From positions 1-64,000 of the IMG/VR virus record IMGVR_UViG_3300038451_000147: a stretch of 64,000 nt of DNA; one strand, 5' to 3'. The notes beneath the pieces were generated by a model, which worked only from the letters and a program-made list of their open reading frames with translations, had not been told where the DNA came from and searched no databases. This DNA is from a virus. A program made the position numbers and the translations under genes. Shown here piece after piece: positions 4,045 to 46,564 of the stretch; the stretch's first letter is position 1; the number at the start of each line of letters is the position of its first letter.

Positions 4045-4208
4045 TGACCGATACAGTTGTAGACTATTGGCTCAACGGAAGACACTACCCACCCATCAGC
4101 GTAGAGGTTGCAGACGACTTCGAGTCACTGGCAAGAAGGTTAGGCCAGATTGTGGAACGCACCCCTCTCCAACTCAAGATAACACAGGGAAGCGGGAGAC
4201 TCTATTGA
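4044..4208 (+). CDS. Unknown 54-aa protein
   Basis: TAATG junction with the gene before. MTDTVVDYWLNGRHYPPISV then a helix (VADDFESLARRLGQIV) and a short strand. Small alpha/beta protein, unknown. Confidence 0.55.
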   Translation: MTDTVVDYWLNGRHYPPISVEVADDFESLARRLGQIVERTPLQLKITQGSGRLY

Positions 4209-4498
4209 TTCACACTTACAACAAACGGATAGCCGTCATCCTTCACCAACTGCTAGATGAATGTGAAGCCATCGTCTCAGTAGGTGACAATCAGATAAAA
4301 CAAGAACTCTGGAACTCGAAGGGCAACGTCAGAGGCATGAATCGGAACAAGGCTGGAAGACAGCAACGGATAGATTGGTTCAATGCTAGGTCGGATGCAG
4401 CAGTGGAAGTGGCCAAGACAATCCTTCAAGTCTCGCCCACCAAACTCCATGTGCCACCGACTCTCAAAGAGCATGGCGTAGGAAGGAAGTTCTTTTGA
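4205..4498 (+). CDS. Unknown 97-aa protein, TTG start
   Basis: TTG 4205 overlaps the upstream stop as TTGA. The helical N-terminus (KRIAVILHQLLDECEAIV) and basic middle (NRNKAGRQQRIDWF) could bind nucleic acid. Not recognised. Confidence 0.6.
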   Translation: MIHTYNKRIAVILHQLLDECEAIVSVGDNQIKQELWNSKGNVRGMNRNKAGRQQRIDWFNARSDAAVEVAKTILQVSPTKLHVPPTLKEHGVGRKFF

Positions 4499-4989
4499 CT
4501 TACTGGACTCGCACCGACTACTTCACTTGCAACCACATCTACAAGGTAGACTCTAACAACCGCGACCTACACCTTGAGAAATGCCCTCAGTGCAATGTGG
4601 GAGACTACCAATACTCTTCGATAGCGACTGATGAGAAGGAACGACCAGAGCCTAGACCGCAACCCGAATACTGGCCGAGCGCGGAAGGTGAGGGAACAGG
4701 ATACTGGACGCTCCAAGGCACACCTATCGAGCCACCCAATGTGACATCAGGAACAGGAGCCACAGTAAGCAACTGTGTTCGCTTCACTGATTACCCTACG
4801 ATTCAAGACGCTGGAAACCTCTACAGAACCATCCTAAGTAGCGGCTCATCCTATACCGAGAGTCTTTCAGAAGAGCATCCGTTTCCAGACTCTACTCACA
4901 ACCATGCCAACTGTCTAATATGCAGAAGGGCAACACAAAGAGACCATGAAGACGCTTCACACTTCCCAGAGGAAGAGCAACATGAATAG
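4495..4989 (+). CDS. Unknown 164-aa Cys/His-containing protein, TTG start
   Basis: An N-terminal C-x2-H...CPQC group (CNHIY, KCPQCNVGD) suggests a zinc knuckle; a Pro/Gly/Glu-rich low-complexity middle follows; the C-terminus has HNHANCLICRRATQRDH, a second metal-binding candidate. Last gene of its overlap chain. Role unknown. Confidence 0.6.
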   Translation: MTYWTRTDYFTCNHIYKVDSNNRDLHLEKCPQCNVGDYQYSSIATDEKERPEPRPQPEYWPSAEGEGTGYWTLQGTPIEPPNVTSGTGATVSNCVRFTDYPTIQDAGNLYRTILSSGSSYTESLSEEHPFPDSTHNHANCLICRRATQRDHEDASHFPEEEQHE

Positions 4990-4994
4990 CAACC

Positions 4995-5002
4995 TTTATA
5001 AA
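4995..5002 (+). promoter_or_regulatory. TATA box for gene at 5026
   Basis: CCTTTATAAACT, 24 bases before ATG 5026, with ACAAGGGGTAGGGAT between box and start. One of the clearest examples of the composite promoter in this window. Confidence 0.75.
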
Positions 5003-5025
5003 CTCTCAAGACAAGGGGTAGGGAT

Positions 5026-5250
5026 ATGGTAAAAGAAGACGTTGACAAGTTGAACGGACGCCAGATTCGCAGGGTTCGGCTCGAATGCGATTGGTGCAAC
5101 TGGAAGCGCATCGTGACTATGCTCGACATCGAAGATGCCATCCAACAGCACTACAAGTCTACCTACGGTGAGCAGATTCTAGGCGAGAAGGAAGCGCGAC
5201 ACTACGGCCACCCCTACATTCAGATACAAGTGGTGTCGGTCTGTGGGTAG
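5026..5250 (+). CDS. Unknown 74-aa protein with CxxC
   Basis: MVKEDVDKLNGRQIRRVRLE leads into CDWCNWKRI, a single knuckle, then an acidic helix. Could be a partial zinc finger. Starts a new transcription unit. Confidence 0.6.
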   Translation: MVKEDVDKLNGRQIRRVRLECDWCNWKRIVTMLDIEDAIQQHYKSTYGEQILGEKEARHYGHPYIQIQVVSVCG

Positions 5251-5350
5251 CGAGACCAAGAAGAAGCCAGTCTGCTGGCGATGTGGTGGAGAGATAGTCA
5301 CAAAGGGAGACTACCAAGTGTGCAAAAAATGTGGGGCGTTCTTTCCCTGA
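5243..5350 (+). CDS. Zinc-ribbon mini-protein, 35 aa, GTG start
   Basis: GTG 5243 overlaps the upstream gene by 8 bases. CWRCGGE and CKKCGAFFP, separated by 13 residues, make a minimal zinc ribbon. Confidence 0.55.
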   Translation: MGSETKKKPVCWRCGGEIVTKGDYQVCKKCGAFFP

Positions 5351-5361
5351 AGGGCAATATC

Positions 5362-5369
5362 CTTATAAG
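5362..5369 (+). promoter_or_regulatory. TATA box for gene at 5393
   Basis: ATATCCTTATAAGGG, 24 bases before ATG 5393, followed by ATGGGTAGGGCC before the start. Confidence 0.65.
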
Positions 5370-5392
5370 GGCGTTCTCACATGGGTAGGGCC

Positions 5393-5485
5393 ATGAGCCT
5401 AGAGGATTCGGAATTGGAAGAGGACATTGAAGACTTCGATGAGGACGGATGGGAAGAGGACATAGATGAAGAGGATGGGTTCTAG
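5393..5485 (+). CDS. Extremely acidic 30-aa peptide
   Basis: MSLEDSELEEDIEDFDEDGW and a similarly acidic tail: 18 of 30 residues are Asp or Glu, with no Lys or Arg. It has its own promoter. Could be a DNA-mimic or chaperone-like peptide, which is inference only. Confidence 0.5.
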   Translation: MSLEDSELEEDIEDFDEDGWEEDIDEEDGF

Positions 5486-5563
5486 ATGAGCATCTTCAAT
5501 CGCAAACCAAAGCCTATCGAGACTGAGAGAGGCCAAGTATGGTGGAGAGACTTCGCATGGTAA
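5486..5563 (+). CDS. 25-aa peptide resembling the portal N-terminal region
   Basis: MSIFNRKPKPIETERGQVWW ends RDFAW before TAA. The portal (14803) carries ERGEAWWRDFAW near its N-terminus, and DNA at both sites shares TGGTGGAGAGACTTCGC. ATG directly follows the upstream TAG. Possibly a duplicated fragment of the portal gene or a competing peptide. Confidence 0.45.
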   Translation: MSIFNRKPKPIETERGQVWWRDFAW

Positions 5564-5832
5564 CACTCAACAAGGTGACTATCCCAACGATGGCCAAAGC
5601 AATCGTTCAAGTCGAGTCAGCCGAGCCTCTAGTCGCATTGAAATGCTCTAGTTGCGGAGCGAACTTCAATCCATCTACAAAACACTGCGAGTATTGCGGC
5701 ACATGGTTCGGCCCACCTATTCAAAAGCGTGTGGCTAACACCATTGACAATGATGTAATCGTTGAAAGCCATTTCGCTGAGTTGATTCGTGCATCAAACA
5801 AGTTCAAATCCTTGGGGTTGCTATCAGGATGA
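5557..5832 (+). CDS. Double-Cys zinc-ribbon protein, 91 aa
   Basis: ATG 5557 overlaps the upstream peptide. CSSCGANF at about residue 29 and CEYCGTWFG near residue 43 form a compact zinc ribbon like those of double-zinc-ribbon proteins, followed by a helical tail. Likely a structural or adaptor zinc module; function unknown. Confidence 0.6.
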   Translation: MVTLNKVTIPTMAKAIVQVESAEPLVALKCSSCGANFNPSTKHCEYCGTWFGPPIQKRVANTIDNDVIVESHFAELIRASNKFKSLGLLSG

Positions 5833-5939
5833 AAGGGAAGAAACTAGAGAAGATACCATGCTTCTGCATCAAGCATCACATGACCGACTTCTGCTTATGG
5901 AGAAAACTTTCAGGGTTGCCACCAGTGGAGAACCCTTAA
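5829..5939 (+). CDS. 36-aa Cys/His basic peptide
   Basis: MKGKKLEKIPCFCIKHHMTD FC... has CFC-x3-HH-x4-C, a possible metal site. Its stop falls inside the next TATA box. Overlap ATGA with the gene before. Confidence 0.45.
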   Translation: MKGKKLEKIPCFCIKHHMTDFCLWRKLSGLPPVENP

Positions 5940-5943
5940 ATAG
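5935..5943 (+). promoter_or_regulatory. TATA box for gene at 5966
   Basis: CCCTTAAATAG, 23 bases before ATG 5966, with AGTAGGGGTAGCAAC before the start. Confidence 0.7.
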
Positions 5944-5965
5944 TCTTAGGAGTAGGGGTAGCAAC

Positions 5966-6277
5966 ATGAGCAAAGATGAAAAGGCAACGGCCATTCTCTC
6001 AACTCCCTTTGAAATAAGAGACTTCATGAAAGGATATTATAGAGAAGTCTATGTGACAGGGCAAGTGCTGTCCAGTTTGGTTAAGTGTATGACGGCTTAC
6101 CCTAGTCTGAGGCTAGGCCAGTTGCTCTATTGCGCTATTACCCGCAATTATCAGTTAGATGGAGTAAAAGACGTAACAGATGAAATGCTAGGATGCGCTC
6201 TTTTCACCATTTATGACGAGTCCCTAATAGAAGCCTTGGACAAGTTCACTGAGGCAAAGGAGAAGGGAAAGAAATGA
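5966..6277 (+). CDS. Unknown 103-aa helical protein
   Basis: The start is set by the promoter at 5935. MSKDEKATAILSTPFEIRDF and later segments are helical throughout, with QLLYCAITRNYQLDG and a Lys-rich C-terminus (FTEAKEKGKK). Not recognised. Confidence 0.6.
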   Translation: MSKDEKATAILSTPFEIRDFMKGYYREVYVTGQVLSSLVKCMTAYPSLRLGQLLYCAITRNYQLDGVKDVTDEMLGCALFTIYDESLIEALDKFTEAKEKGKK

Positions 6278-7655: not shown

Positions 7656-8257
7656 TTCCTCTTCCCTGTCCAAAGACTCCTATTCCAGAAGACCTGATGA
7701 AGTTAGGAGTAGTCCAGTTCACAAGGGATTCCTACCCCAACCCACAGTATGACAGATTGGACTTCATCCTTTCCATGAGGGGCTATGAACTCTACACTAT
7801 GGAGAGTCTGAAGAGGGACTACAAGGAATGGAAGGAACCAAGGGAGTCACCCAAGAAGTGGCAAGACCTTCTTGAGCCGCTTCCTGCAAAATTCGGCATT
7901 CACGACAAACAGCCAAGGCACGACAAGTTCGAGATAGCCTACGCCAAGAGGGAGTTCAAGGAATACAAAGACGACCTCAAGAAACTGCCTACCCTTGAGA
8001 AGTGGGCCAAAGCAGAGATAGGCAAAGAGTTCTATCAGATGGTGTTGAATCACAGCAATCTCTACCATCTCATAAGATATGGAATGATGACAACCACAAC
8101 CAGTGGGGTTTCTATCGAAGCCATCGCCTCTATGCTAGAACGACAATACAACAAGATGAGAGAAGCGGCCAGAAAGAACTTTGTCGTTCTTGACCCCAAA
8201 CTAACGGCGTATGTTGGCAAGATTCCGCGTTTCCCACATTGGATAGTAGCACCATGA
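7652..8257 (+). CDS. Unknown 201-aa protein
   Basis: Largest unrecognised protein of this arm. After a Pro-rich start (MIPLPCPKTPIPEDLMKLG) it is helical and Lys-rich (AKREFKEYKDDLKKLPTLE) with a conserved-looking helical end (SIEAIASMLERQYNKMREAA). No catalytic motif seen. Confidence 0.65.
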   Translation: MIPLPCPKTPIPEDLMKLGVVQFTRDSYPNPQYDRLDFILSMRGYELYTMESLKRDYKEWKEPRESPKKWQDLLEPLPAKFGIHDKQPRHDKFEIAYAKREFKEYKDDLKKLPTLEKWAKAEIGKEFYQMVLNHSNLYHLIRYGMMTTTTSGVSIEAIASMLERQYNKMREAARKNFVVLDPKLTAYVGKIPRFPHWIVAP

Positions 8258-8421
8258 AACCTCTCAAAGCAGAACCAGATAAATGGGTTGAAAGAGTAGG
8301 ATGGACACGAACTCAACGACTGCTTGCGTGTTGCTGGACTTGCGATGAAGAGTTAGAAAACAGAGAAGAGATTCAAGAGCATCTCGACAAAAAACATTCA
8401 GTAGGTCAAGAGTGGCTTTGA
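8254..8421 (+). CDS. C2H2-type zinc finger protein, 55 aa
   Basis: ATG 8254 overlaps the upstream stop as ATGA. CWTCDEELENREEIQEHLDK followed by KH gives C-x2-C-x12-H-x4-H, a C2H2 finger. Similar fingers occur in the large proteins at 11916, 17383, 55338 and 56138. Confidence 0.6.
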   Translation: MKPLKAEPDKWVERVGWTRTQRLLACCWTCDEELENREEIQEHLDKKHSVGQEWL

Positions 8422-11692: not shown

Positions 11693-11938
11693 CTAGAGCC
11701 TCAGAAGGTATTCCCAGAGGTTGTAAGTAAGGAAGGTTGTAACGGCGGCAACCAAAATGCTCTCTCCCCACAACTTCCAATCATAAGTTATGTATGCTAC
11801 ACCTACCAAAACAAGACCAAGAGCAAAAGAAAGGTAGGTGGGCGCGTGGACGAAAGTAAGTTCTATAAGACTATAGATGATACCAAACACAAAGGCAGTA
11901 GCGAGAACAAACGCATCATCGCTGTCCATGCTTCTCAA
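11693..11938 (-). CDS. Membrane protein, 81 aa
   Basis: Three hydrophobic spans (AFVFGIIYSLIELTF, YLSFALGLVLVGVAYITY, ESILVAAVTTFLTYNLW). A TTG start at 11938 overlaps the end of the ATPase gene; ATG 11929 is an alternative. Probably co-transcribed with the ATPase. Confidence 0.6.
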   Translation of the reverse strand: MRSMDSDDAFVLATAFVFGIIYSLIELTFVHAPTYLSFALGLVLVGVAYITYDWKLWGESILVAAVTTFLTYNLWEYLLRL

Positions 11939-14162
11939 CGATATGATTCAGGTAGTCTTTTTCGTATTTGTAGGCTTCAGGGCATTGGTCGCACTTGAAT
12001 GGACGTTCCTCTGCCTTCTCCATAGTCCCTTCTATCACACCCGAATCTCCTGTCTCCTTCTGATGGTTGTGTAGTTCTCTTCCAGTCGGAAACTGGCCAC
12101 CGCAACCCGCGCACCACTGCACCCGTTCCTTCTCTTCATACTTTGGCCCCTTTGTTGTATTGCACTTAGGACAATACTTTATCTGAGATTGGTTCCCTTT
12201 CGGGCCTATAGTTGCAATCTTTAATTCCGTTCCACATCTATCGCAAACCTCACCTTGTTCGGTCTTCTCTGGCTCTTTTGGGGCTTCTTCGGGTGGCTCT
12301 TCTGCTGGCTCCTCTTCAGGTGGTTCTGTTTCAGGTTCCTTTGGTTCCTCTGGTTCCTTTGGCTCTTGAGGCTCCTTGCCACCCCCGCCATCTACTGGCG
12401 TGGGTTCCTTCTCCTTTGGCTTCTCCTTGTCCTTATCTTTGTTCTTGCCCTTACCCTTCGGTGGTCTGGGCTTGGCAGTGGGCTTGGTCGTGGGCTTCTC
12501 TGGAACCTTGCCTACCCATACCTGTTCACCGTCCTTAAAGAGAATGGCCTCATACTCCTGTAGGTCTCTGAAAACCTCTTCAGGTTGGGCGAACCAATCA
12601 ATCAGAACGTCTAGGTCTTGAGGTAGGATGTGCTGGAACGTGAAGATGAAAGGCGAATTGGCCAAGATGTCCTTACTGACATCAGCCGTTCTCCGAGCCG
12701 CGAAAATGCCACCAACCCCATAGTTGCGCCCAAGGTTGACCAACTCGTTCACCATCGAACCGGGCTTGGATTTATAGCGGTCAATCTCATCCATTACCAC
12801 CATACAGTTCCCTTTTTCAAGTGCCGAGTAGATTATATCGTCTACAGTCGCCTCATCAGTCGGAGTGACTTGGTGATACTCCACATTGGAATTTCCCTCA
12901 TACTCAGAGAAGTTGCCCAAAGCATCCAAAAGGACGAACTGATAGTCCTTAAGGACATCTGAAATGAGGACTTTGATGAGGTTAGTCTTGCCCGAACCAC
13001 TCTTCCCAAGAATGGCTATCTTGTCAGAAATGTCTACCTCTATCTTGGGCATCGCCTTTGCTTTGGCTTCGACACTCTTGGGGTCAGTGCCAGCAATCTT
13101 CTGAGCCTCTGGCGACATAGGTGTTCCTTTCTCCTTCTCTTTGTCTATCTCAATGCGTGGGTCTTTGAGTTCCTCATCCAAATCACTAAAGTCTGCCCTT
13201 GCTCCTCTTCCGATACAAGCCATACAGTCTCCGCAATCGCAACCGCCTTCGTCCTCTATATCGCAACAATTAGGCCCACAATCCTCTGGCAAGTCCTCTA
13301 GAGTCGTATCGTCTATATCTCCACCCTCTTCAGGTTTGAACTGTTTCTGTATAGGTGAAATCGTCTCGGTTCCAGAAGGCATATATTGGCCTTGGCTGAA
13401 AGGCGTGACATTCTGTTGGGTAGTAGGATTCAACTGTTGAGAGGGGTCTTGCTGTTGCTGTTCCTTTTTCTTTTGAAGGTCGTATCCACAAAAGCCACAT
13501 CTCCAATGCCCTGTGTTATCGTCAACAAATCTCTCTTCCCCATAGTTTAGGTCTTTGCCACAGTCGGGGCATATGTCTCGCTCTTCCTCTTTAGAAGTCT
13601 GAGGAGTGCAAAGTCCAGACTCAATGAAGGACTGAGCCAGCCGTTGGTAGGAACCCTGAAGGTGTTCGATGACCCCTGAATCAATGAGAAACTGGACATC
13701 TACAGCCATGTCTTCTGAGGTCGGGTAGTCTTCTCCACCCTCTATCCTATTGATTATCTCAAGCACCTTCGGGTCGTAAGGCCCGGTCTCTTCAAAGGCT
13801 GTCTTGCTCTCCATCATTCCTGTTCCACCACAATACTCGCATTCATACTCTCCACCTTTGAATGGGTCTTTCCTGAACTGGTCTTTCAAGACCCCAGACC
13901 CCAGACACTTGGGGCATAGCACATCGGTTCCATCCTCTTTCTTGTCAGGGTCAATGACATCCTCATCCAACTCGTCCAGAGAATGCTCATTGTAAGGCTT
14001 GTGATGGACATCGCACTCTTCATCTCCCATCGCTTCCAGCCCTTCACTTATCGCGGGGTCGAACTCTCTACCTTCGTCTTCAAATCGGATGGGGTCTGTA
14101 GGTGAGGAGCCTACACGATGGTTTGGCCAGTCAAGGGTCTTCGTAACCGACTTGTCGGACAT
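11916..14162 (-). CDS. HerA/FtsK-like ATPase with multiple zinc modules
   Basis: A 748-aa multidomain protein. In order: an acidic N-terminus; a DnaJ-type CPKCLGSG...CEYCGGTG module; a small helical module with VQFLIDSGVIEHL; a CPDCGKDL...CGFCGYD ribbon; a Cys-rich CNCCD-like cluster; then a P-loop ATPase with Walker A GKSGSGKT, Walker B CMVVMDEID, and GGIFAARRTADVSKDI as in HerA/FtsK translocases. A Pro/Glu/Lys-rich linker of about 100 residues, another zinc ribbon and a terminal C2H2 finger follow (CDQCPEAYKYEKDYLNHIVE). Start at 14162 is set by TATA spacing, against an in-frame extension to 14342. It could be a DNA translocase in packaging, injection or recombination. Confidence 0.7.
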   Translation of the reverse strand: MSDKSVTKTLDWPNHRVGSSPTDPIRFEDEGREFDPAISEGLEAMGDEECDVHHKPYNEHSLDELDEDVIDPDKKEDGTDVLCPKCLGSGVLKDQFRKDPFKGGEYECEYCGGTGMMESKTAFEETGPYDPKVLEIINRIEGGEDYPTSEDMAVDVQFLIDSGVIEHLQGSYQRLAQSFIESGLCTPQTSKEEERDICPDCGKDLNYGEERFVDDNTGHWRCGFCGYDLQKKKEQQQQDPSQQLNPTTQQNVTPFSQGQYMPSGTETISPIQKQFKPEEGGDIDDTTLEDLPEDCGPNCCDIEDEGGCDCGDCMACIGRGARADFSDLDEELKDPRIEIDKEKEKGTPMSPEAQKIAGTDPKSVEAKAKAMPKIEVDISDKIAILGKSGSGKTNLIKVLISDVLKDYQFVLLDALGNFSEYEGNSNVEYHQVTPTDEATVDDIIYSALEKGNCMVVMDEIDRYKSKPGSMVNELVNLGRNYGVGGIFAARRTADVSKDILANSPFIFTFQHILPQDLDVLIDWFAQPEEVFRDLQEYEAILFKDGEQVWVGKVPEKPTTKPTAKPRPPKGKGKNKDKDKEKPKEKEPTPVDGGGGKEPQEPKEPEEPKEPETEPPEEEPAEEPPEEAPKEPEKTEQGEVCDRCGTELKIATIGPKGNQSQIKYCPKCNTTKGPKYEEKERVQWCAGCGGQFPTGRELHNHQKETGDSGVIEGTMEKAEERPFKCDQCPEAYKYEKDYLNHIVEKHGQR

Positions 14163-14187
14163 ACTAAGGTTTAAAAGGGGTTGGTTG

Positions 14188-14194
14188 TATATAA
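14188..14194 (-). promoter_or_regulatory. TATA box for the HerA-like ATPase gene
   Basis: Minus-strand GCTTATATAC, 26 bases before ATG 14162. A second AT-rich CTTTTAAAC lies only 8 bases from the start, too close for a TATA box. Confidence 0.55.
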
Positions 14195-14200
14195 GCCTTG

Positions 14201-14288
14201 GGATGGGTAGCGACTTAGTGACACTCTTGCTACCACAAACAAACAAGGGCGGGTCTGTCTCGGAAGAACAGACGGTTGCTACCCATCC
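14201..14288. repeat. Inverted repeat between divergent promoters
   Basis: GGATGGGTAGC (14201-14211) is the reverse complement of GCTACCCATCC (14278-14288). Nested inside are GTCTGT/ACAGAC (14253-14258 and 14268-14273) and a competing GCTACC (14229-14234) that could pair with the left arm instead. The block separates the ATPase promoter from the HNH promoter. It could be an operator or a folded RNA element. Confidence 0.5.
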
Positions 14289-14297
14289 TAAAGAATC

Positions 14298-14306
14298 CTT
14301 AAATAG
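14298..14306 (+). promoter_or_regulatory. TATA box for HNH gene at 14328
   Basis: GAATCCTTAAATAG, 22 bases before the GTG start at 14328. Confidence 0.6.
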
Positions 14307-14327
14307 AGCAGAACACTTACATTTACT

Positions 14328-14771
14328 GTGCCAAGTTGTCACATTTGCGGAACAGAACTAACCGAAGAGAACTGGACAGATTCCAAACGTAAGAGGCTTG
14401 AGCGTATTTGCAAGATGTGTGATGTTAAGAGAGCAAGAGCATGGCGGAAAGCCCATCCAAATGGTGCGTATCATAAGTATCGGATTGGTGCAAAGGCATA
14501 CATGAGGAACTACATGAGAGGCTATCGCCAAAAGCATCTGGAAAGGATGCAAGAACTTGGTAGACTTGAGAAGCATAGAAGGACTAGGGAACTCCCGACA
14601 TCCACCATTCTCAACAAATCCTTCAAAGGAGCGCATCTCCACCATATAACCCCTTCTGTGGCTATCTACATCCCAAAGGGGCTACATAGAAGCGTGTTCC
14701 ACAATCTGAAGACAGGAGAGGGTATGGACGAAATCAATGCTAAAGCGTTAGCATGGGCTAAATCCTTATAA
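14328..14771 (+). CDS. HNH-like endonuclease with zinc knuckles
   Basis: The N-terminal CHICGTEL...CKMCDVK zinc pair is followed by a basic helical linker and a His-rich core HLHHITPSVAIYIPKGLHRS then VFHNLKTGEGM, matching a free-standing HNH family. 147 aa, GTG start at the expected promoter distance. Probably a homing-type or packaging-associated nuclease. Confidence 0.65.
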   Translation: MPSCHICGTELTEENWTDSKRKRLERICKMCDVKRARAWRKAHPNGAYHKYRIGAKAYMRNYMRGYRQKHLERMQELGRLEKHRRTRELPTSTILNKSFKGAHLHHITPSVAIYIPKGLHRSVFHNLKTGEGMDEINAKALAWAKSL

Positions 14772-18000: not shown

Positions 18001-18257
18001 TGAACGACGAAGATATTGCTGACATCAGAGTAAACATAGCGTGTATACAAAAAGACATCGAGTTCATCAAAGATAGTCTTGGTGTCTTGAATCACAATAG
18101 CACAACGATGTCAGAACGCATCAGTGCGCTTGAGACAGCCCATAAGACCACTTCAGACTACAAGGACTTTGTTAAGAAACTCGCTTCGACTCTAGGTGGG
18201 ATGGCAGTCTTCGTTGCTACCCTTCTAGCGATACTCCGTTATCTCACCATTCTCTAG
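17997..18257 (+). CDS. Coiled coil plus C-terminal membrane helix, 86 aa
   Basis: Heptad-like N-terminal half (IRVNIACIQKDIEFIKDSLG) and a C-terminal transmembrane segment (GGMAVFVATLLAILRYLTIL). This architecture resembles XhlA-type holin partners and other phage membrane proteins. ATGA overlap with 17383; converges on 18254 with a 4-base overlap. Confidence 0.55.
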   Translation: MMNDEDIADIRVNIACIQKDIEFIKDSLGVLNHNSTTMSERISALETAHKTTSDYKDFVKKLASTLGGMAVFVATLLAILRYLTIL

Positions 18258-18907
18258 AGGCTCTTTCTCCATCTGTAGATTAAGGCAACAAGAAGTGCTA
18301 TGAGGAACAAGGTGAGACCTATAACAAGTATGAACCAATCTGGAACAGATGTAGAAGACGCTGTAGACGGCGTGACTGTCGTGGTCACTGTCTGAATAAC
18401 CGTGTTTGTGACTACTGGCAAAGTCAGGGTTATGGTAGTTGCAACAGTCTCAATCTGAGTAACACCGATTTGGACTATCTGTATCTCAGTTTGAGTTGTA
18501 GTGACACTTTGCATTTCTGTCGAAATCTGCGTAATTGTCACTGTAATAGGTGGAAGCGTCTTTGTATGAATCTTAGTCTGGGTCTGAGTTGTGGTGACAC
18601 TTTGCGTTTGTGTCTCAGTTTGTGTGTTTGTCACCGTAACTGGAAGTGTCTCCGTTTGAGTCTGGGTCTCAGTGGTGGTGAAATTCTGAGTCTGTGTTGA
18701 GGTCTGAGTCTCGGTATTGGTCTGCGTCTGAGTCACTGTAATAGTCGTTGGTGATATTACTGTGGATGTCGTTGTAACTGTGACCGTCTTAGTTGGGGTA
18801 GTAGATGTGGTAGTAGTGCAAGCCAATACTGGTGAGAGACTGATTGATAACGCAAGAGCGATGAGCGTCAGAACTAGGGCGTAGAATGCGAGACTCTTTG
18901 ACCTCAT
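18254..18907 (-). CDS. Secreted Thr/Gln-rich stalk protein with C-terminal anchor
   Basis: 217 aa. A signal-like N-terminus (MRSKSLAFYALVLTLIALAL), then about 140 residues dominated by TQT/TET/TVT repeats, and a C-terminal transmembrane anchor (WFILVIGLTLFLIALLVALI) with basic tail RWRKSL. This is the plan of a heavily O-glycosylated mucin-like surface protein. Probably displayed on the host envelope or used in adsorption or superinfection control (inference). Confidence 0.6.
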   Translation of the reverse strand: MRSKSLAFYALVLTLIALALSISLSPVLACTTTTSTTPTKTVTVTTTSTVISPTTITVTQTQTNTETQTSTQTQNFTTTETQTQTETLPVTVTNTQTETQTQSVTTTQTQTKIHTKTLPPITVTITQISTEMQSVTTTQTEIQIVQIGVTQIETVATTITLTLPVVTNTVIQTVTTTVTPSTASSTSVPDWFILVIGLTLFLIALLVALIYRWRKSL

Positions 18908-19393: not shown

Positions 19394-19651
19394 CTAAGAG
19401 ACTGGTTTCCTCATCCGTAAGATGAAGGCGGTGGCGAACCCAAGTGTCGCTCCCAATACTGGAAGTGCGTATATGGGTGTAGTCATCAGGTCGGGAGGAA
19501 GGACGCTAGTTACAACGGGGATTTGACTAAATTCCCCAAGGAACCAGTTAGTCACAACTCCTACGATGCCACCTACCACTGTGTAAAGGAACGTAGAGCC
19601 AAGGAATTTGGCTTGCTCCTTTATATAGTTCATTATGTCTTTGAAGGACAT
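19394..19651 (-). CDS. Two-helix membrane protein, 85 aa
   Basis: Two hydrophobic spans (FLYTVVGGIVGVVTNWFLG and YALPVLGATLGFATAFILRM) after an amphipathic N-terminus. Its gene set (stalk protein, unknown, membrane protein) is a run of separately promoted minus-strand genes. Role unknown. Confidence 0.6.
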   Translation of the reverse strand: MSFKDIMNYIKEQAKFLGSTFLYTVVGGIVGVVTNWFLGEFSQIPVVTSVLPPDLMTTPIYALPVLGATLGFATAFILRMRKPVS

Positions 19652-19673
19652 AGTAGACCCTTCCCATCCATGT

Positions 19674-19681
19674 CTTATAAG
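19674..19681 (-). promoter_or_regulatory. TATA box for gene 19394-19651
   Basis: Minus-strand ATACTTATAAGAC, 23 bases before ATG 19651, followed by GGGAAGGGTCTACT. Confidence 0.6.
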
Positions 19682-19692
19682 TATTCGCTTTT

Positions 19693-19729
19693 AGAGGGGA
19701 TATAGGGGTATATCCCCATATACCCCTCT
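19693..19729. repeat. Imperfect 37-base palindrome
   Basis: AGAGGGG (19693-19699) pairs with CCCCTCT (19723-19729); inside, GGGG (19705-19708) pairs with CCCC (19714-19717) around TATAT, and the arms are linked by ATATA on both sides. Lies in the largest gene-free stretch, directly beside the phased CT tract. Could be part of a replication origin or a protein-binding cruciform. Confidence 0.65.
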
Positions 19730-19746
19730 CCCTTCGTGATTCGCAT

Positions 19747-20010
19747 CTGGGCTTGTCTGACCTTTTCTGTGCTACTCGCCTCTCTTCTCCTCTAATGCTT
19801 GGCTTGTCTTGGCTTGGCTAGTCTATACCTTTCTGAACTATTCTGTGCTCCTCTTTTCTGATGCTAGTCTAATCTGTTCTTCTCTTTGCTTCTCTGCATT
19901 TGTCTACACCTTTCTATGCCTATCTGTTCTGCTACTTGTCTGAACTTTGCTTTTCTTCTCTTATCTTCTCTATGCTAATCTAGCCCGTTCTTCTCTCCTC
20001 TTCTGCTAGT
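19747..20010. repeat. Pentanucleotide-phased CT tract
   Basis: About 260 bases without a plausible gene. CT (or at least C) recurs every 5 bases: positions 19747, 752, 757, 762, 767, 772; then 19798, 803, 808, 813, 818, 823; 833 to 858 in steps of 5; 864 to 894; 904 to 929; 940 to 19980. The phase slips by one base near 19793-19798, 19859-19864 and 19930-19935. The intervening three bases vary, so this is not a simple repeat. The top strand is pyrimidine-rich. Candidate origin, partition or packaging site. Confidence 0.7.
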
Positions 20011-20574
20011 CTAGACTTCTTCGATGCTGAAGTGACCGAACATTGTCTTGTATGAACCAACGCCAGCGAGACCTAATCGTTGCATTGCCTCTTGAACGTG
20101 GACTCGTTTGACCGGACTCATGTATTCGATTGTTGCTTTGGTTGACCAAGGAAGTTCTAAGATGGGTCGGCAGATGAGCATTTGACTGCCCTTCTTACCA
20201 CCAACATTGATTCTGTCCCAACGAAGCGTGTATTTGCATGTTCTTGGTTCAAGAGGTAGATAGGGTTCTCGAATGGTCACAATGTTATCTTGCACAAATT
20301 TCTTCAGGGCCGTGAATCCTTTCACTTGGATTGCGCCGCCAATACCTTCTAGTCCCTTCCGTATGTTGATACTAGGGATTGCTGGACGATTTTGGAAGAA
20401 ATGGCCCTTAGACTTGATGATGGCAGTCTTTTGCGCTTCTGTGAGGTCTCGTATTCCTTCCTCTAGTTTGCTCATAGCGAATGGTATAGAAATGTTGGGG
20501 TCTAAGTTGTTCCAAATTATGGGGTCAGTGCCAATGAGTTTGAAGGTCGCTGATTCTATCGTTGTATTTGTCAA
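20011..20574 (-). CDS. Conserved-looking viral protein of unknown function, 187 aa
   Basis: Ends with a Gly-rich motif GLAGVGSYKTMFGHFSIEEV of the GxGxxxxxFGxFxIEE kind that I associate with uncharacterised phage proteins near recombination or replication genes. The body has a basic beta-rich segment (RTCKYTLRWDRINVGGKKGS). It overlaps the exonuclease-like gene by ATGA and so is its translational partner. It lies beside the phased CT tract and could bind DNA. Confidence 0.6.
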   Translation of the reverse strand: MTNTTIESATFKLIGTDPIIWNNLDPNISIPFAMSKLEEGIRDLTEAQKTAIIKSKGHFFQNRPAIPSINIRKGLEGIGGAIQVKGFTALKKFVQDNIVTIREPYLPLEPRTCKYTLRWDRINVGGKKGSQMLICRPILELPWSTKATIEYMSPVKRVHVQEAMQRLGLAGVGSYKTMFGHFSIEEV

Positions 20575-21509
20575 ATTTTTCTTTTCACCCCCTTGTGTCG
20601 AAAGGACTCAAATACGGACATCCTGTCTTGCACAAACATAATCGGTTTTGCACTTGATTGTGATGGTTTGAATCTACCAAACACAGATTTCAAGTCGGGC
20701 GTGTAGTCAACACTTCCTATTGTTCTCGATACTATGAATTTGGCTATCTCCTGTTTAGAGAGAAGAATAGGTTTACCTTCATCCATTTTGCTATCATTCG
20801 GGTAGAGGTCAAAGACAGTGAGCCTATTCAATTTGCGAATGTGCTTACTCAGAAAGTCAATCTGTCGAAGGTTTGCCTCTAAGCAAGTCCGGTTTCTTTC
20901 GTCTCTGATTCTCCGTCTCAACCTCAGAACCTCACTTCTACTAAGACCTTCATTTTCACCAAGAGTCGCTCTTCGCCACAACTCTTCTGAGAGATGGCCC
21001 TTTTCAATACCCAAGCCAAAATGGAACGCCAAATGCTCTTGACTTGCACTTACTCCCGTTCCACTACGGCCTTTGAATGGGGTCATTATGTCAATCGCTA
21101 CCTCTGGTAATCTTATTCCAAGATTGGCTCTTATTCCGTAGTCCTTGAGAGCAGTAACATCCCACTCTACGAAATGGCCAATTATTCCGTCAGAGTTTTT
21201 AAGGTATTCATAACCCAACCTAGTCAAGTCTAGAGTCGTCCTTCCGTCTATTCCCAAAACAAACTGCTTCGGCGGCTTTGCAGTGAATTTGTTGTTCTCA
21301 AATATCAACTTTTGAATCCCTATCACTAGCAAAGACTTGTCTGGTTTCCTCATCATTTCGCCGGGTGCGTATGCTTCCAAATCAACTGAAGCCAAAGTCA
21401 GTCTCTTTCCTGTCTCAATACACTCTAGAACCTTGGGACAGAAGGTCTTCTTCAGACCTGAACTCATGGATGCGACTGTCAACCCAAGCAGAAACTCCTT
21501 TGCATTCAT
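20571..21509 (-). CDS. DEDD-type 3'-5' exonuclease-like protein
   Basis: 312 aa. An Exo I-like LASVDLEAYAP (D-x-E) near residue 42, Exo II-like GHFVEWDVTALKDYG near residue 110, and a late LEANLRQIDFLSKH that could hold the last Asp. This is the RNase H-fold exonuclease pattern of DnaQ/PolB proofreaders without a polymerase. Heads an operon with 20011 and has a strong promoter. A role in replication or end processing is inferred. Confidence 0.55.
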   Translation of the reverse strand: MNAKEFLLGLTVASMSSGLKKTFCPKVLECIETGKRLTLASVDLEAYAPGEMMRKPDKSLLVIGIQKLIFENNKFTAKPPKQFVLGIDGRTTLDLTRLGYEYLKNSDGIIGHFVEWDVTALKDYGIRANLGIRLPEVAIDIMTPFKGRSGTGVSASQEHLAFHFGLGIEKGHLSEELWRRATLGENEGLSRSEVLRLRRRIRDERNRTCLEANLRQIDFLSKHIRKLNRLTVFDLYPNDSKMDEGKPILLSKQEIAKFIVSRTIGSVDYTPDLKSVFGRFKPSQSSAKPIMFVQDRMSVFESFRHKGVKRKI

Positions 21510-21530
21510 GGCCTACCCCTTCTCGCCAAC

Positions 21531-21540
21531 CTTTATAAAG
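21531..21540 (-). promoter_or_regulatory. TATA box for the exonuclease-like gene
   Basis: Minus-strand AATCTTTATAAAGG, 22 bases before ATG 21509, with AGAAGGGGTAGGCC before the start: a full match to the composite promoter. Confidence 0.75.
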
Positions 21541-21549
21541 ATTATGGTT

Positions 21550-23034
21550 CTACCCCACAAGCCGTCTCTCGTTACAATGAAGGTGGAACGGAATCTGCAA
21601 TTTGAGAGGGGTCTTTTTGGTCGAATACTCTTCGGGAATATCGGGCCTTCCCTTGATTCCTAGCCCTTTCACAAGGTCTTCGATGGGCCAAGTCTCTTCC
21701 ACGATGTTCAGTTCCACGTTGTCCACTACATTGGTGAGGATATTGGCCACCGTCCTGTCGGATTCCTCTGCCCGATACCATATAAAGCCTAGACCTTCAG
21801 CCAGCATCCCCATGTCAGACTGCTCAAAGTTGTCCGAAATCTCGTCTCCATAGTCTCCCTCTGCTGAGAATGGGGTCTTGAAGAAGATGTTGATGGACTT
21901 GTCGGCTCCCACCACTAGCATAACCTTCTCGTTCTCATCGTTCATGTAACCTGCTACATCGCCAGTGCTGGCTGTCGGAGTGACGGGGTGCATATGGACA
22001 GTCCCTATCAATTCCTCTCCTTCATGTAGTTGCTCGTTAGGCTCCAGAACAATCTCTCTGTCCTTGCCGAACTGCTCCCCTACAACTCCCAATTCACCGT
22101 GTTTGGCTTTGATGAGAAAACCACCCGCTTCATTGTCATTGGTAGTCGAGTATTCAATCATCATCATAAGGTCGTTGTAGAGCCTTTCAGGTATCTCAAT
22201 CTTGTCTGGCACTTCAAGCCCTTCTGCTGTGATAGGGCGGTCTTTGTCTGGCTCTTCTGGTTCTGGGATGTCGGGGTCTGGATTCAGTTCTCTGTCTGGA
22301 TTGCTAGGGTCTGGCTCTCCTTTCTTTGTCGTTGGTTGCATCCAACCACAATCTATACATCTGAAAGCACTTTCACCTGCGGGAACCATCCACATCGAAC
22401 CACAAGCAGGACAAACACGATGACCACTACTTGTGAGGCTAGGGTCTGGCTCATCCTTCACACTCCCACTTCTATCAGCATCGCAACCACATTCCAAGAA
22501 GGTGCATATATCACTCACATCCACTCCTTCATCCCGAAAGAGACCTTCTTCTGCTTCGTGGTCACAATCGCATTCCTTCCCTTCCTCTCCCTTTGAATGA
22601 CCATAATACTTCTTGCCCTTGTGAGTGTGATACTCCTCAATGGGGTCTATCAATTCGCCACAATACTCACATCTCTTGTAGTTGATGGCTTCACCTTTAG
22701 GAAGAGTTTCTGTTATGGTGTGCCACGCATGAGGGCCATCTTCAAAGGTAGATACAGGAAAGGTTACTCTACATTCTACACAATACCACATTTTTTCTTC
22801 CTCTTCATCGGACTTTCTATAAGTGCCACCTGTCGCTGGCCCTTCTTTGCCAGCCTCATTGCAATCCTTACAGTTGTTTGGGCAGACATCGTGCTCCATA
22901 ATGCACTCTATACAAGAAGGTTCGCAATCCAAAGAATACGATTCCTCATTGAACTTCTCGATGTTGGGATAGTTCTTTTGGCCTACCTTCGGTGCTGGCT
23001 CTTGAGGCGATGCTGGCGCGTAGGGTGGAATCAT
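21550..23034 (-). CDS. JAMM/MPN+ metalloprotease-like protein with zinc-finger N-terminus
   Basis: 494 aa. Residues 1-230 hold many Cys pairs (CEPSCIECIMEHDVCPNNCK, CVECRVTFP, CEYCGEL, CPACGSMW, CIDCGW). An acidic Pro-rich linker follows. The C-terminal domain carries the JAMM signature: Glu in DNEAGGFLIKAKHG, then TVHMHPVTPTASTGD giving H-x-H-P-x5-S-x2-D. JAMM enzymes remove ubiquitin-like proteins or act as viral tail-associated peptidases (NlpC/Mov34 tail proteins). Which applies is unknown; the gene lies in the replication arm. ATGA overlap with the HNH gene upstream. Confidence 0.7.
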   Translation of the reverse strand: MIPPYAPASPQEPAPKVGQKNYPNIEKFNEESYSLDCEPSCIECIMEHDVCPNNCKDCNEAGKEGPATGGTYRKSDEEEEKMWYCVECRVTFPVSTFEDGPHAWHTITETLPKGEAINYKRCEYCGELIDPIEEYHTHKGKKYYGHSKGEEGKECDCDHEAEEGLFRDEGVDVSDICTFLECGCDADRSGSVKDEPDPSLTSSGHRVCPACGSMWMVPAGESAFRCIDCGWMQPTTKKGEPDPSNPDRELNPDPDIPEPEEPDKDRPITAEGLEVPDKIEIPERLYNDLMMMIEYSTTNDNEAGGFLIKAKHGELGVVGEQFGKDREIVLEPNEQLHEGEELIGTVHMHPVTPTASTGDVAGYMNDENEKVMLVVGADKSINIFFKTPFSAEGDYGDEISDNFEQSDMGMLAEGLGFIWYRAEESDRTVANILTNVVDNVELNIVEETWPIEDLVKGLGIKGRPDIPEEYSTKKTPLKLQIPFHLHCNERRLVG

Positions 23035-24441: not shown

Positions 24442-24595
24442 CGTGACCACCAAGACAGCACCCACATATCGGACAGTCAGCTATGAGAGACACTAGAAAA
24501 GCGGCCTCTTCAAAGGAGAGAGCACACTGATGAAACCTACAAGCGTAGAAGGTCTCCTCTTCTGGTTTTACCATATCCGCATCCCTACGGGCCAT
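24431..24595 (-). CDS. Small zinc protein, 54 aa
   Basis: MARRDADMVKPEEETFYACR then FHQCALSFEEAAF and CPICGCCLGGH. Four or more Cys/His ligands in two groups. Overlaps the primase end by 11 bases and the next mini-gene by 11, so it is part of the primase operon. Confidence 0.55.
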   Translation of the reverse strand: MARRDADMVKPEEETFYACRFHQCALSFEEAAFLVSLIADCPICGCCLGGHVEV

Positions 24596-25827: not shown

Positions 25828-27174
25828 TTAAGAGAGCGTGTAGTCAATCGAGTTAACATTGATTTGTTTGAGTTTTTGTGCATAGACTTCAGCATCTTCA
25901 AGCACTCGGTCAACAATCCTATCCAAATCGTCCATCATTAGAATATCTATCATTGCCAATTCTGGCAAGTGGTCAGATAGCGCGGCATTAACGCTACCGC
26001 CTCTAGTGTGTGGATACGAATGCGCGTAGTGGGCAAGGAAGAACGACCTAACCTCTACAGTGTCGCACGCCTCTATCTTGTCATACAGAGAGGGGTCGTA
26101 GATGGGTTGGTTGCAATACGTCTTAATCTTAGGATGGAGCCAGAACCTCTGAAGGGTGTCCGTCAGCCTCTCCTCTAAAGCCCTATAGGTGTCTACCAGT
26201 CTCCGATGCTCGACATCATCATAGCCCTTGTCCACAAGCGGGGTGTAGGCTCCATAGTTTATGATTCCAAACCTTCTGCCCATAGCGTAACTATTGCGAC
26301 AGAGGAAGCCCAAGATGTCGCGCATAATAGCAGTATGACTTCCAGACAGAGCAAGTGGATTGGCCGTTATAATTAAGGGACACGCACCCTGAACCATCAT
26401 CTCTCCACCACCACCCGCCACTCTGGACTTCCCAGATTCCAAATGGCCTAGAAGGAATCCAGCCATGTTCTCAATGGTCTGACTCTCAATCTGGTCTATG
26501 GCAAGCGCATAGTATTGGTCAGCGAACAATCCAGCCGCCTTGTCGTCTGTCCACTTTACAGAACCCAATAGGGTGTTCTTGGTGGCCTTGTCCACGTTCT
26601 TGCCTATGAGGTCGAAGAAGGTGCTCTTCCCCGTATTAGGTGGCGTGATTTGCAACTCATGTGGCTGATACCGCATCACATAGCCTCTCGCTAAAGTGGC
26701 CTTATTGGAAAGGGCTAGAGCAGGGTCACGGACACAGTTGTATTCGATGATGTCAGCCACAAGTTTAGTCCAGTCTTCCGTCACCTGTCCAGTCGAGACA
26801 TCGAGCCACTTGCCTAAAGTGAGGTCGTTGAACGAGTAATCTGTCCCGAAAGTGTAAAGTCCCAAATCGTCCCACCCTTTGATTCGTGGGTCATCCCCTA
26901 TCCGCTTTGTGATGTAGTCTCTGTCTTTGAGGTCAAAAATCTCGTCCAGTTTTTTGATGTCCATCTCCATCAAAGGGAGAGAAATCTTCTTGCTATGGAT
27001 GATGTTCTTCGTGTCCACGATGTAGATTGGAGAAGCAATCGTAGTAGGAAAGGCAACGTAAAGTTTTGCTCCTACGCTAATCGTGATACCTTCCGGCGTG
27101 TTCTCAACATCAGACCTCTGATAGAGAGCGCGAATCTGTTGAAACGTATTCAGAACCCGATTGTTCTCAGACAT
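25828..27174 (-). CDS. AAA+ replicative helicase, MCM/SF3-like
   Basis: 448 aa. Walker A is PPNTGKSTFF near residue 180; a Walker B-like YYALAIDQIES follows about 40 residues later with Gln in place of the usual Glu; sensor 1 is CPLIITANP; an arginine-finger-like AMGRRFGIINYG comes next. Motif order and spacing fit MCM or superfamily 3 viral helicases. The N-terminal 170 residues would be the DNA-binding or oligomerisation region. It should unwind the fork with the primase and PolB. Start abuts the upstream stop. Confidence 0.65.
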   Translation of the reverse strand: MSENNRVLNTFQQIRALYQRSDVENTPEGITISVGAKLYVAFPTTIASPIYIVDTKNIIHSKKISLPLMEMDIKKLDEIFDLKDRDYITKRIGDDPRIKGWDDLGLYTFGTDYSFNDLTLGKWLDVSTGQVTEDWTKLVADIIEYNCVRDPALALSNKATLARGYVMRYQPHELQITPPNTGKSTFFDLIGKNVDKATKNTLLGSVKWTDDKAAGLFADQYYALAIDQIESQTIENMAGFLLGHLESGKSRVAGGGGEMMVQGACPLIITANPLALSGSHTAIMRDILGFLCRNSYAMGRRFGIINYGAYTPLVDKGYDDVEHRRLVDTYRALEERLTDTLQRFWLHPKIKTYCNQPIYDPSLYDKIEACDTVEVRSFFLAHYAHSYPHTRGGSVNAALSDHLPELAMIDILMMDDLDRIVDRVLEDAEVYAQKLKQINVNSIDYTLS

Positions 27175-44972: not shown

Positions 44973-44977
44973 GAATG

Positions 44978-45004
44978 CTTATTAAGCACACAACCTATAT
45001 AAAC
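44978..45004. promoter_or_regulatory. Interleaved divergent TATA boxes
   Basis: CTTATTAAG (44978-44986) lies 25 bases before the terminase ATG (45011); CCTATATAAAC (44994-45004), read on the minus strand as GTTTATATAGG, lies 22 bases before ATG 44972. Each box lies within the other's transcript. Confidence 0.55.
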
Positions 45005-45010
45005 ATTGCA

Positions 45011-46564
45011 ATGAGTAGTTCCAATGAGCGTCTTCTGAAGAGTCTGGAACAGGAGTTCGACAAAATTAAGGCGAAGGAACCCAAAGACGTTACTCTAGAC
45101 CTCAGTGACCCTATGACATTTGTTGAGAACTACGTCAAACTTCCAGAGAAAGCTCCACCAGAGCAGAAGACTTGGTTCGAGCAACGGCCTTGGCTTTCAG
45201 AAATCTACAGAGATGGGAACAAGAGAATTGTTATAGTGAAGGGCCGACAGATGGAAGTCTCCGAGTATGCCGTGAATATGCTGTTCTATTGGGCCGCAAA
45301 ATGGCCGGGGAAGTATATCTACGCCTCTTCGTCAGGTGACAAGGCAGATGTCTTCAGCCATGACCGCTACCAGAAGCAACTCTCTCGAAGCCCTACGCTC
45401 CAAGCCCTTGTGCGAGACGAAGCCGTTAGAAGGGTGCAATATGCGAAGTCCGAAGTCTACTTTATGACAGCCTATGAAGACACCAAGACTCTGAGAAGCA
45501 TTGACGCTGATGGCATCATCCTTGATGAGTTCCAAGACTACAGGGCCAACGCCATCCCCATCGCTGAAGAGGGTCTGGCTCACAGTCAACTCAAGAGGCT
45601 TTGGGTGATAGGAACTCCCTATCTCACAGGAACCAACTTCTCTAGTAAGTGGGACGAAAGCACAAAGAAGGAGTGGAACAAAGAGAAACAGATGTGGGAA
45701 GTAACCAACCCTAAGTCAGATGGGATGTGGCAAGGCTATCACATCAGTCAGGAGATGGCAGTAGGGGTATGGCTTACCCCAGAGGAGTTCGAGTATAGGA
45801 GAGCACACAAGCCAGCACAGGAGTTTGCGAATGAGTGTCTAGGATTATTCTATGCTGGACTCGGAAGACCGACAGACTACGGTTACATGAGTTCACTCTT
45901 CAGCCCGTCTTTAATGAAGGGCCAATTCGGAAAGGGTGAACTTCTGATTTCGGGTATAGATTGGGGTATCTCCAAGTCTAATACGGTCTTCTACTTGATT
46001 CGACCAAGACTTCTAGAGTTGCCAGACCTCTATACAATAGACACTCTTTATGTTGAAAAGGTAGACAATCCAGATATAACCAAACAGATTGCAAGAATCG
46101 CGCAACTCCTCACTACCTTTCCCACTGTAATCAATGTGCTAGACTACGGCACTGGTTTCGTGCAAAATCAGGAACTCTACAAACAGTTCGGAAACCGAGT
46201 GATACAGATAGAATTAGGCAGTGGAAAACTAGGCAAGCCCATAACGGTAGAGCAAACCGCCTTTGGCCCGATAGCCAAAGTCAACAGAACGTGGGCTATA
46301 GACACGGCTATGGATTACGTCACTAGACCAGACAGATTCAGATTTTACAACGAGACAGACAAAGGCACAAAGGACTGGATTATCAGAGACTTTTTGGCTG
46401 AATACCCTGAAACGAGCAAAACCACCGAAAAGAAGATTTGGATTCACAGTTCCGATGCCACAGACGACTGCCTCATCGCCTTCGTGAATGCTATGATTGG
46501 CTTCCAACTTCAGAAGTCGGCTAGTATGCCGGAGCGCGTGGAAGATATGATTAGTTTCGTGTGA
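45011..46564 (+). CDS. terL: Large terminase subunit (TerL)
   Basis: 517 aa. Packages DNA into the head. The ATPase shows IVIVKGRQMEVSEYA where Walker A normally reads GRQxGKT, i.e. without the P-loop Lys; Walker B is IDADGIILDEFQDY; motif III WVIGTPYLTG. The nuclease has Asp in ISGIDWGISKSNT, INVLDYGTGF and ATDDCLIAFV, the RNase H-like triad. ATG 45011 (MSSSNERL) fits promoter spacing better than ATG 44975. Confidence 0.85.
   Translation: MSSSNERLLKSLEQEFDKIKAKEPKDVTLDLSDPMTFVENYVKLPEKAPPEQKTWFEQRPWLSEIYRDGNKRIVIVKGRQMEVSEYAVNMLFYWAAKWPGKYIYASSSGDKADVFSHDRYQKQLSRSPTLQALVRDEAVRRVQYAKSEVYFMTAYEDTKTLRSIDADGIILDEFQDYRANAIPIAEEGLAHSQLKRLWVIGTPYLTGTNFSSKWDESTKKEWNKEKQMWEVTNPKSDGMWQGYHISQEMAVGVWLTPEEFEYRRAHKPAQEFANECLGLFYAGLGRPTDYGYMSSLFSPSLMKGQFGKGELLISGIDWGISKSNTVFYLIRPRLLELPDLYTIDTLYVEKVDNPDITKQIARIAQLLTTFPTVINVLDYGTGFVQNQELYKQFGNRVIQIELGSGKLGKPITVEQTAFGPIAKVNRTWAIDTAMDYVTRPDRFRFYNETDKGTKDWIIRDFLAEYPETSKTTEKKIWIHSSDATDDCLIAFVNAMIGFQLQKSASMPERVEDMISFV

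Follow-up and report, generated by a model that had tools for sequence, protein, structure and literature searches.

The tract at positions 19747-20010 of the window (the whole stretch of 64,000 nucleotides analysed, positions 1 to 64,000 of IMG/VR record IMGVR_UViG_3300038451_000147) is very probably a VIPR guide-RNA (vrRNA) array with about four gapped guides, lying behind the gene of its partner protein. The evidence consists of the periodicity of the tract, its strand and position, the profile-based family membership of the neighbouring protein, the sense-strand arrays of that protein's relatives and the fact that the nearest related virus lacks all parts of the module together. VIPR is a newly described relative of CRISPR and has been proposed as its ancestor. 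As described in the main text of a 2026 preprint (PMC13142463), it combines the RAMP protein Vipr with guide RNAs built from 9-16 pentamers, each made up of a conserved triplet (GGY or a related one) and a hypervariable NN. In SUSP1, a phage, double-stranded DNA is recognised by the NN pairs jointly, with one target base left out between successive pairs, and transcription is repressed; the natural targets suggest that the system is directed against competing phages and satellites (PMC13142463, main text). The same text reports seven types from phages and archaeal viruses, some with staggered arrays of overlapping guides and some with nuclease or helicase accessories. No further VIPR paper was found in a literature search.

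Phasing and units of the tract

The tract contained 62 CT dinucleotides. Pairs of CT at a distance of 5 numbered 38, compared with 14.1±3.0 in 2000 dinucleotide-preserving shuffles, none of which equalled this count. Similar excesses were found at distances 10 (38 pairs), 15 (30), 20 (28) and 25 (26), where the shuffles gave about 13-14 (sd 3) and again 0 of 2000 was as high as the tract. A preliminary description, made from the letters alone, had placed CT on a five-base grid over about 260 bases, and the autocorrelation, with phasing far above that of the shuffled controls, bore this out. The best single period of the grid was 5.07 (power 18.4, versus 2.4 at a period of 5.000 without slips) rather than 5 because of one-base slips at 19794, 19860, 19931 and 20002. 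The size of the slips and their spacing (66, 71 and 71 bases) had been described correctly, but there were four of them and not three.

Across both strands of the 105,335-bp record the grid was unique to this tract, with 12-13 of 14 positions occupied; the runner-up reached 8 and lay within a coding gene. The true extent of the phased tract was about 19739-20017, wider than the coordinates given above. It is non-coding and has stops in all six frames, and therefore shows no codon pattern; the stops also ruled out coding pentapeptide repeats as its source. The pentamers are diverse, which ruled out a tandem repeat or microsatellite. The preliminary description had dismissed a codon pattern, a tandem repeat and a microsatellite on inspection.

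The genes on both sides of the tract are on the minus strand. Read on that strand, the tract had the consensus AG-M-NN, with A in 49 of 55 pentamers, G in 54 and M (A or C) in 46. Entropies by pentamer position were 0.6, 0.13, 1.49, 1.90 and 1.90 bits, NN being nearly random. Single extra bases shift the register and split the array into 3 (partial), 14, 14, 13 and 11 pentamers, listed here in the direction of reading:

19739..20017, minus strand: putative vrRNA (guide RNA) array, about 55 AG-M-NN pentamers with four one-base register shifts; assigned from periodicity, composition, position directly behind the vipr homologue and non-coding character
20003..20017, minus strand: unit B0, partial, three pentamers (AGTCT AGACT AGCAG), overlapping the vipr stop codon
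19932..20001, minus strand: unit B1, 14 pentamers, NN = GG GA AC CT TT AT GA TA GA AA AA TC CA AG
19861..19930, minus strand: unit B2, 14 pentamers, NN = AC TA AT AA GT CA GC GA AA GA AC TT CT AT
19795..19859, minus strand: unit B3, 13 pentamers, NN = AA GG AC AT TC AA AT CT CA CA CA CA AT
19739..19793, minus strand: unit B4, 11 pentamers, less regular, NN = GG AG GG GT AC AA TC CA CC TG AT

The first pentamers of the array overlap the final codons of the 187-aa ORF at 20011-20574. Before the shifts a unit end of the form AGAC(T/A)AG(C/T)A(G/T) recurred. The last ten on-grid bases of the four units that precede a shift were 7.7/10 identical, compared with 5.5/10 for random pairs of neighbouring pentamers (P=0.0013, a value that is indicative only, as the comparison was chosen after the sequence had been seen). 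Since the unit ends were more alike than expected by chance, the register shifts look like unit boundaries rather than accidents. Between the units we found no hairpin, hammerhead or common structured 3′ tail, just this short recurring end.

The neighbouring protein and its relatives

The ORF that runs into the array was assigned as follows:

20011..20574, minus strand: vipr homologue, RAMP-family, 187 aa, TTG start; family HMM, phrog_4652 and C-terminal alignment

An HMM of 14 family members, built without the window, placed this ORF first among the 415 ORFs of the genome, over its full length (E=4.5e-7); the runner-up scored 0.007 over a short stretch. When the genome was searched with the public PHROG 4652 model, this ORF was the sole match (E=0.0014), and among the PHROG profiles its best match was again PHROG 4652, weakly (0.012). 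The glycine-rich C-terminal segment, GVGSYKTMFGHF, aligned with the family, for which a fold with an RRM core, a glycine-rich loop and a thumb is expected. The Vipr family profile matched the PDB entry 36pp, "SUSP1 Vipr protein" (E=6.6e-79), an entry not reached in a pairwise search with the 187-aa protein alone. Identity between the window protein and the family was 18-27%; membership rests on profiles, and the family profile is dominated by phage sequences. Close relatives of the protein, archaeal ones included, were not detected in IMG/VR, phages or genome contigs.

A scan of IMG/VR for (AGNNN)x9, that is nine AGs at five-base spacing, returned at least 120 stretches. Among the matches listed, many were coding pentapeptide repeats, and several were long, diverse, non-coding stretches that follow a same-strand ORF of 190-210 aa. 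These ORFs belonged to PHROG 4652 (E 1e-20 to 1e-41). A protein-alignment search yielded 11 loci, one of which was the L074 contig found earlier by the AG scan. At all 11 an RG-phased array lay directly behind the gene, on the sense strand, with 9-10 of 10 grid positions occupied. None of 1426 control windows reached 9 grid positions, and neither did the upstream stretch or the antisense strand. The loci are close to each other, and therefore they do not represent 11 independent cases. Independent support came from L095, L109 and named phages of the family: GGYNN-type or related arrays were seen by eye beside the family gene in wV8, Medea1, LESphi2, LittleE, MakoManhole and prophiBWHA-1. In Gordonia phage Trine, the stretches read contained no array.

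Five-base phasing in related viral DNA, which the preliminary description had proposed to look for, was thus present behind the family gene at each of the 11 loci. The description had also offered a phased purine RNA on the minus strand as one of its readings and had named the product of 20011-20574 as a possible binding partner. The AG-M-NN reading of that strand, the Vipr/RAMP neighbour and the RGYNN-type arrays behind its relatives support both predictions, and judging from this homology the 187-aa protein probably binds the array.

Candidate accessory gene, virus and nearest relative

Three further features flank the gene and the array:

20571..21509, minus strand: candidate accessory (vap) gene, 312 aa, overlapping vipr by 4 bp; weak DEDD/DnaQ-like 3′-5′ exonuclease signal
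21533..21539, minus strand: TATA-like sequence (TTTATAA) at -30 relative to the 312-aa gene; sequence and genome-wide TATA enrichment
19694..19729, minus strand: strong hairpin after the array; a similar palindrome occupies the same site in a relative without the module

The 312-aa protein matched phrog_192, "DNA polymerase exonuclease subunit" (E=0.007), and, over overlapping residues, the NCBIfam models for pol III epsilon (0.06) and 3′-5′ exonuclease (0.11). These signals were weak but consistent, all within residues 101-172. Close relatives of the protein were absent from IMG/VR and phages. An HMM of six small DNA-binding accessories of the SUSP1 type had its best match (E 0.19) elsewhere in the genome, and such a gene was absent at the locus.

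Archaeal promoters with short leaders have a TATA box near -30. TATA-like boxes were found upstream of 15 of the 86 large ORFs, against 1.5 expected, clustering near -30 of the start codons, and the TTTATAA box is the probable promoter of the module. The record encodes a family B DNA polymerase, and the virus looks like an archaeal one of the tailed type, the host being suggested by the TATA boxes. Relatives of its portal were not found in phages or genome contigs. Positions 1-82 of the window recur as the final 82 bases of the 105,335-bp record; given this 82-bp direct terminal repeat, the genome is probably complete or circular. Two different ORFs had terminase-like signals, 11916-14342 (minus strand) and 44975-46564 (plus strand), the profiles being phrog_2666 and Pfam GpA_ATPase. 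A 217-aa protein at 18254-18907 (minus strand) carries long T/Q-rich low-complexity repeats between signal-like and membrane segments, and only its first 35 residues matched the relative at the cut-off used.

The nearest relatives of the virus were several near-identical IMG/VR contigs with a portal 90% identical, in which gene order was kept. When positions 4154-5970 of one of them (L007) were compared with 19394-23034 of the window, the 312-aa gene, vipr and the array were all missing together, which on comparison of the two sequences appears as a clean joint gain or loss. The hairpin has its counterpart in this module-less relative and is therefore a feature of the site, not of the module; it is a possible terminator or operator. 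The preliminary description had noted a palindrome next to the tract; it is not part of the tract, since it is partly shared with a virus lacking the tract. The relative also kept the neighbouring replication genes, namely a homologue of the helicase at 25828 (91% identical) and the gene at 24585. The protein of 25828 had likewise been put forward as a partner of the tract, but it is not part of the module and its homologue persists where the array is absent.

These findings also bear on the idea that the tract acts as double-stranded DNA, offering sites on alternate helix faces to a replication initiator or segregation protein. Its best period of 5.07 is half of 10.14 bp, and a local maximum of cumulative GC skew lies near 18-19 kb, as would suit such an array. 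However, the phase moves in sharp one-base steps at the unit ends and not smoothly, the strand is fixed relative to vipr at 11 of 11 loci, and the array is missing from the relative, in which the helicase and the gene at 24585 are retained. We regard this reading as extremely improbable. The link to replication drawn in the preliminary description, which compared the tract with initiator-helicase sites such as the GAGGC pentamers of SV40, is not supported in view of the same observations, sense-strand arrays behind the gene at all 11 loci and absence of the array where replication genes are kept.

Proposed guides, targets and known systems

Under the VIPR reading, minus-strand transcription would start at the promoter before the 312-aa gene and pass through vipr into the array, and the product would be a largely unstructured RNA of AG-M-NN pentamers. 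Each AG-M triplet would be held by one 187-aa Vipr subunit, so that every unit would carry a filament of 13-14 subunits. The NN pairs left exposed would jointly define a gapped DNA target (two bases read, one skipped, two read and so on), and each one-base slip with its recurring end would mark the border between consecutive guide units. By analogy with characterised VIPRs, the complex would silence genes of competing viruses or plasmids, and the exonuclease-like 312-aa partner may degrade the target. RNA binding, NN pairing, the one-base skip and silencing are known for other VIPR members (PMC13142463, main text); for this array we infer its transcription, loading and targeting, as well as what the slips mean and what the 312-aa protein does. 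By analogy with the characterised members, the array probably silences or degrades competing elements.

Units B1-B4, read with a one-base skip, had no match above shuffled guides in the virus's own genome or in the relative virus. Seeds of eight dinucleotides found 33 sites for B2 and 16 for B1 in IMG/VR, with flanks matching at the random rate (0.23, 0.25). The best of the IMG/VR sites (L163) matched at 24/28, a score that 33 seeds would produce by chance about 0.09 times; we consider this to be about chance and do not claim it as a target. Absence of targets from the searched collections says little about function.

Two other readings draw on this result. In one, the tract is a VIPR array that was inherited but has decayed or lost its activity, to which the irregular pentamers of B4 (CGAGT, AGGTC and CGAAT) would also correspond. 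The G and A of the triplet are nevertheless kept in 54 and 49 of 55 pentamers, and the reading frames of vipr and its partner gene are uninterrupted and preceded by a TATA box; we consider decay very unlikely. The other takes the RNA as a protein-binding scaffold instead of a guide, a RAMP oligomer coating the pentamers as TRAP does and controlling its own mRNA, with NN as spacers. In TRAP sites, two conserved bases and their spacers recur every 5 nt, and TRAP rings coat (G/U)AG-NN repeats, as in the Bacillus trp leader. The tract has a similar layout, AG and two spacer bases repeating at 5-nt intervals in the RNA, and the array is contiguous with the stop codon of vipr. The protein does not fit a TRAP-like ring site, however: it belongs to the unrelated Vipr/RAMP family, and the neighbouring ORFs had no TRAP-family match in Pfam, NCBIfam or PDB sequences. 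TRAP also has about 11 repeats per ring, compared with 55 here, and regulates tryptophan genes. A long multi-unit array with unit boundaries exceeds the need of one binding site, and, within the Vipr family, experiments on SUSP1 demonstrated that NN pairs with DNA (PMC13142463, main text). We therefore consider a scaffold improbable and retain the VIPR guide array as the preferred reading.

Among known systems, the locus is most usefully set beside the VIPRs of SUSP1/Felixounavirus and of the Pseudomonas fulva prophage. Like them, it is virus-borne and encodes a small RAMP-family protein (about 20 kDa) together with a single accessory gene; it also shares a non-coding sense-strand pentamer array beside the vipr gene, in which a conserved R-G-(Y/M) triplet alternates with variable NN. 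Its units of 11-14 repeats are inside the published range of 9-16. Unlike the VIPRs described in the main text of the preprint, it has AG-M in place of GG-Y, and unlike the characterised ones it has archaeal-type promoters. It differs from the SUSP1 type in having one-base register shifts only, without structured tail, hairpin or ribozyme between units, and in its 312-aa exonuclease-like accessory in front of vipr, the small accessory being absent. The lack of a structured tail speaks against the SUSP1 type only, because other array designs are reported in the paper.

The AG-M triplets, the tail-less shifted units and the exonuclease-like partner may make the locus a VIPR variant by comparison with the main-text descriptions. 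Tentatively, it could even be a separate archaeal-virus type, with a tail-less continuous array, guides delimited by one-base shifts alone, an AG-M/NN code and a DEDD exonuclease partner, although we think this rather less likely than not being one. If it were, the DEDD partner would turn target recognition into target degradation between viruses.

A RAMP filament on a guide RNA, with periodically interrupted pairing, is also the backbone of Class 1 CRISPR-Cas (Cas7/RAMP on crRNA). The period there is 6-nt and not 5-nt, the guides here have a conserved code of their own, and neither CRISPR repeats nor cas genes were seen at the locus. We know of no five-base grid in TIGR-Tas. That system (PMC12045711) is likewise virus-borne, RNA-guided and compact, but it has another protein family and interspaced guide arrays. 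The locus would add a divergent member to VIPR, with archaeal-type promoters, another triplet, a one-base-shift array and a possible nuclease partner, and would widen the comparison of how RAMP proteins came to read guides. The decoded NN strings would directly predict gapped DNA targets in co-occurring viruses.

Some observations concern phased DNA elsewhere. In LittleE (L141, 4142-4507) and MakoManhole (L143, 2884-3236), stretches resembling a tRNA T-arm/acceptor (GGTTCGACTCC, GTTCGATTC) lie between pentamer units, which are perhaps processed by tRNA enzymes. In the array region of Felixounavirus wV8 (L139, 2759-2816 and 4152-4209) the record annotates just 58-bp direct repeats, DR_4. AG-phased tracts were also present in L018 (about 8193-8292), L050, L070, L080, L098 and L106, viruses with no Vipr by profile; these may be stand-alone arrays, fragments, companions of more distant Viprs, or other things. 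Pentapeptide repeats of the RLGKD type in phage proteins of 250-300 aa (L044, L128, L035 and many others) place AG every five bases in coding DNA and are a confounder for array scans.
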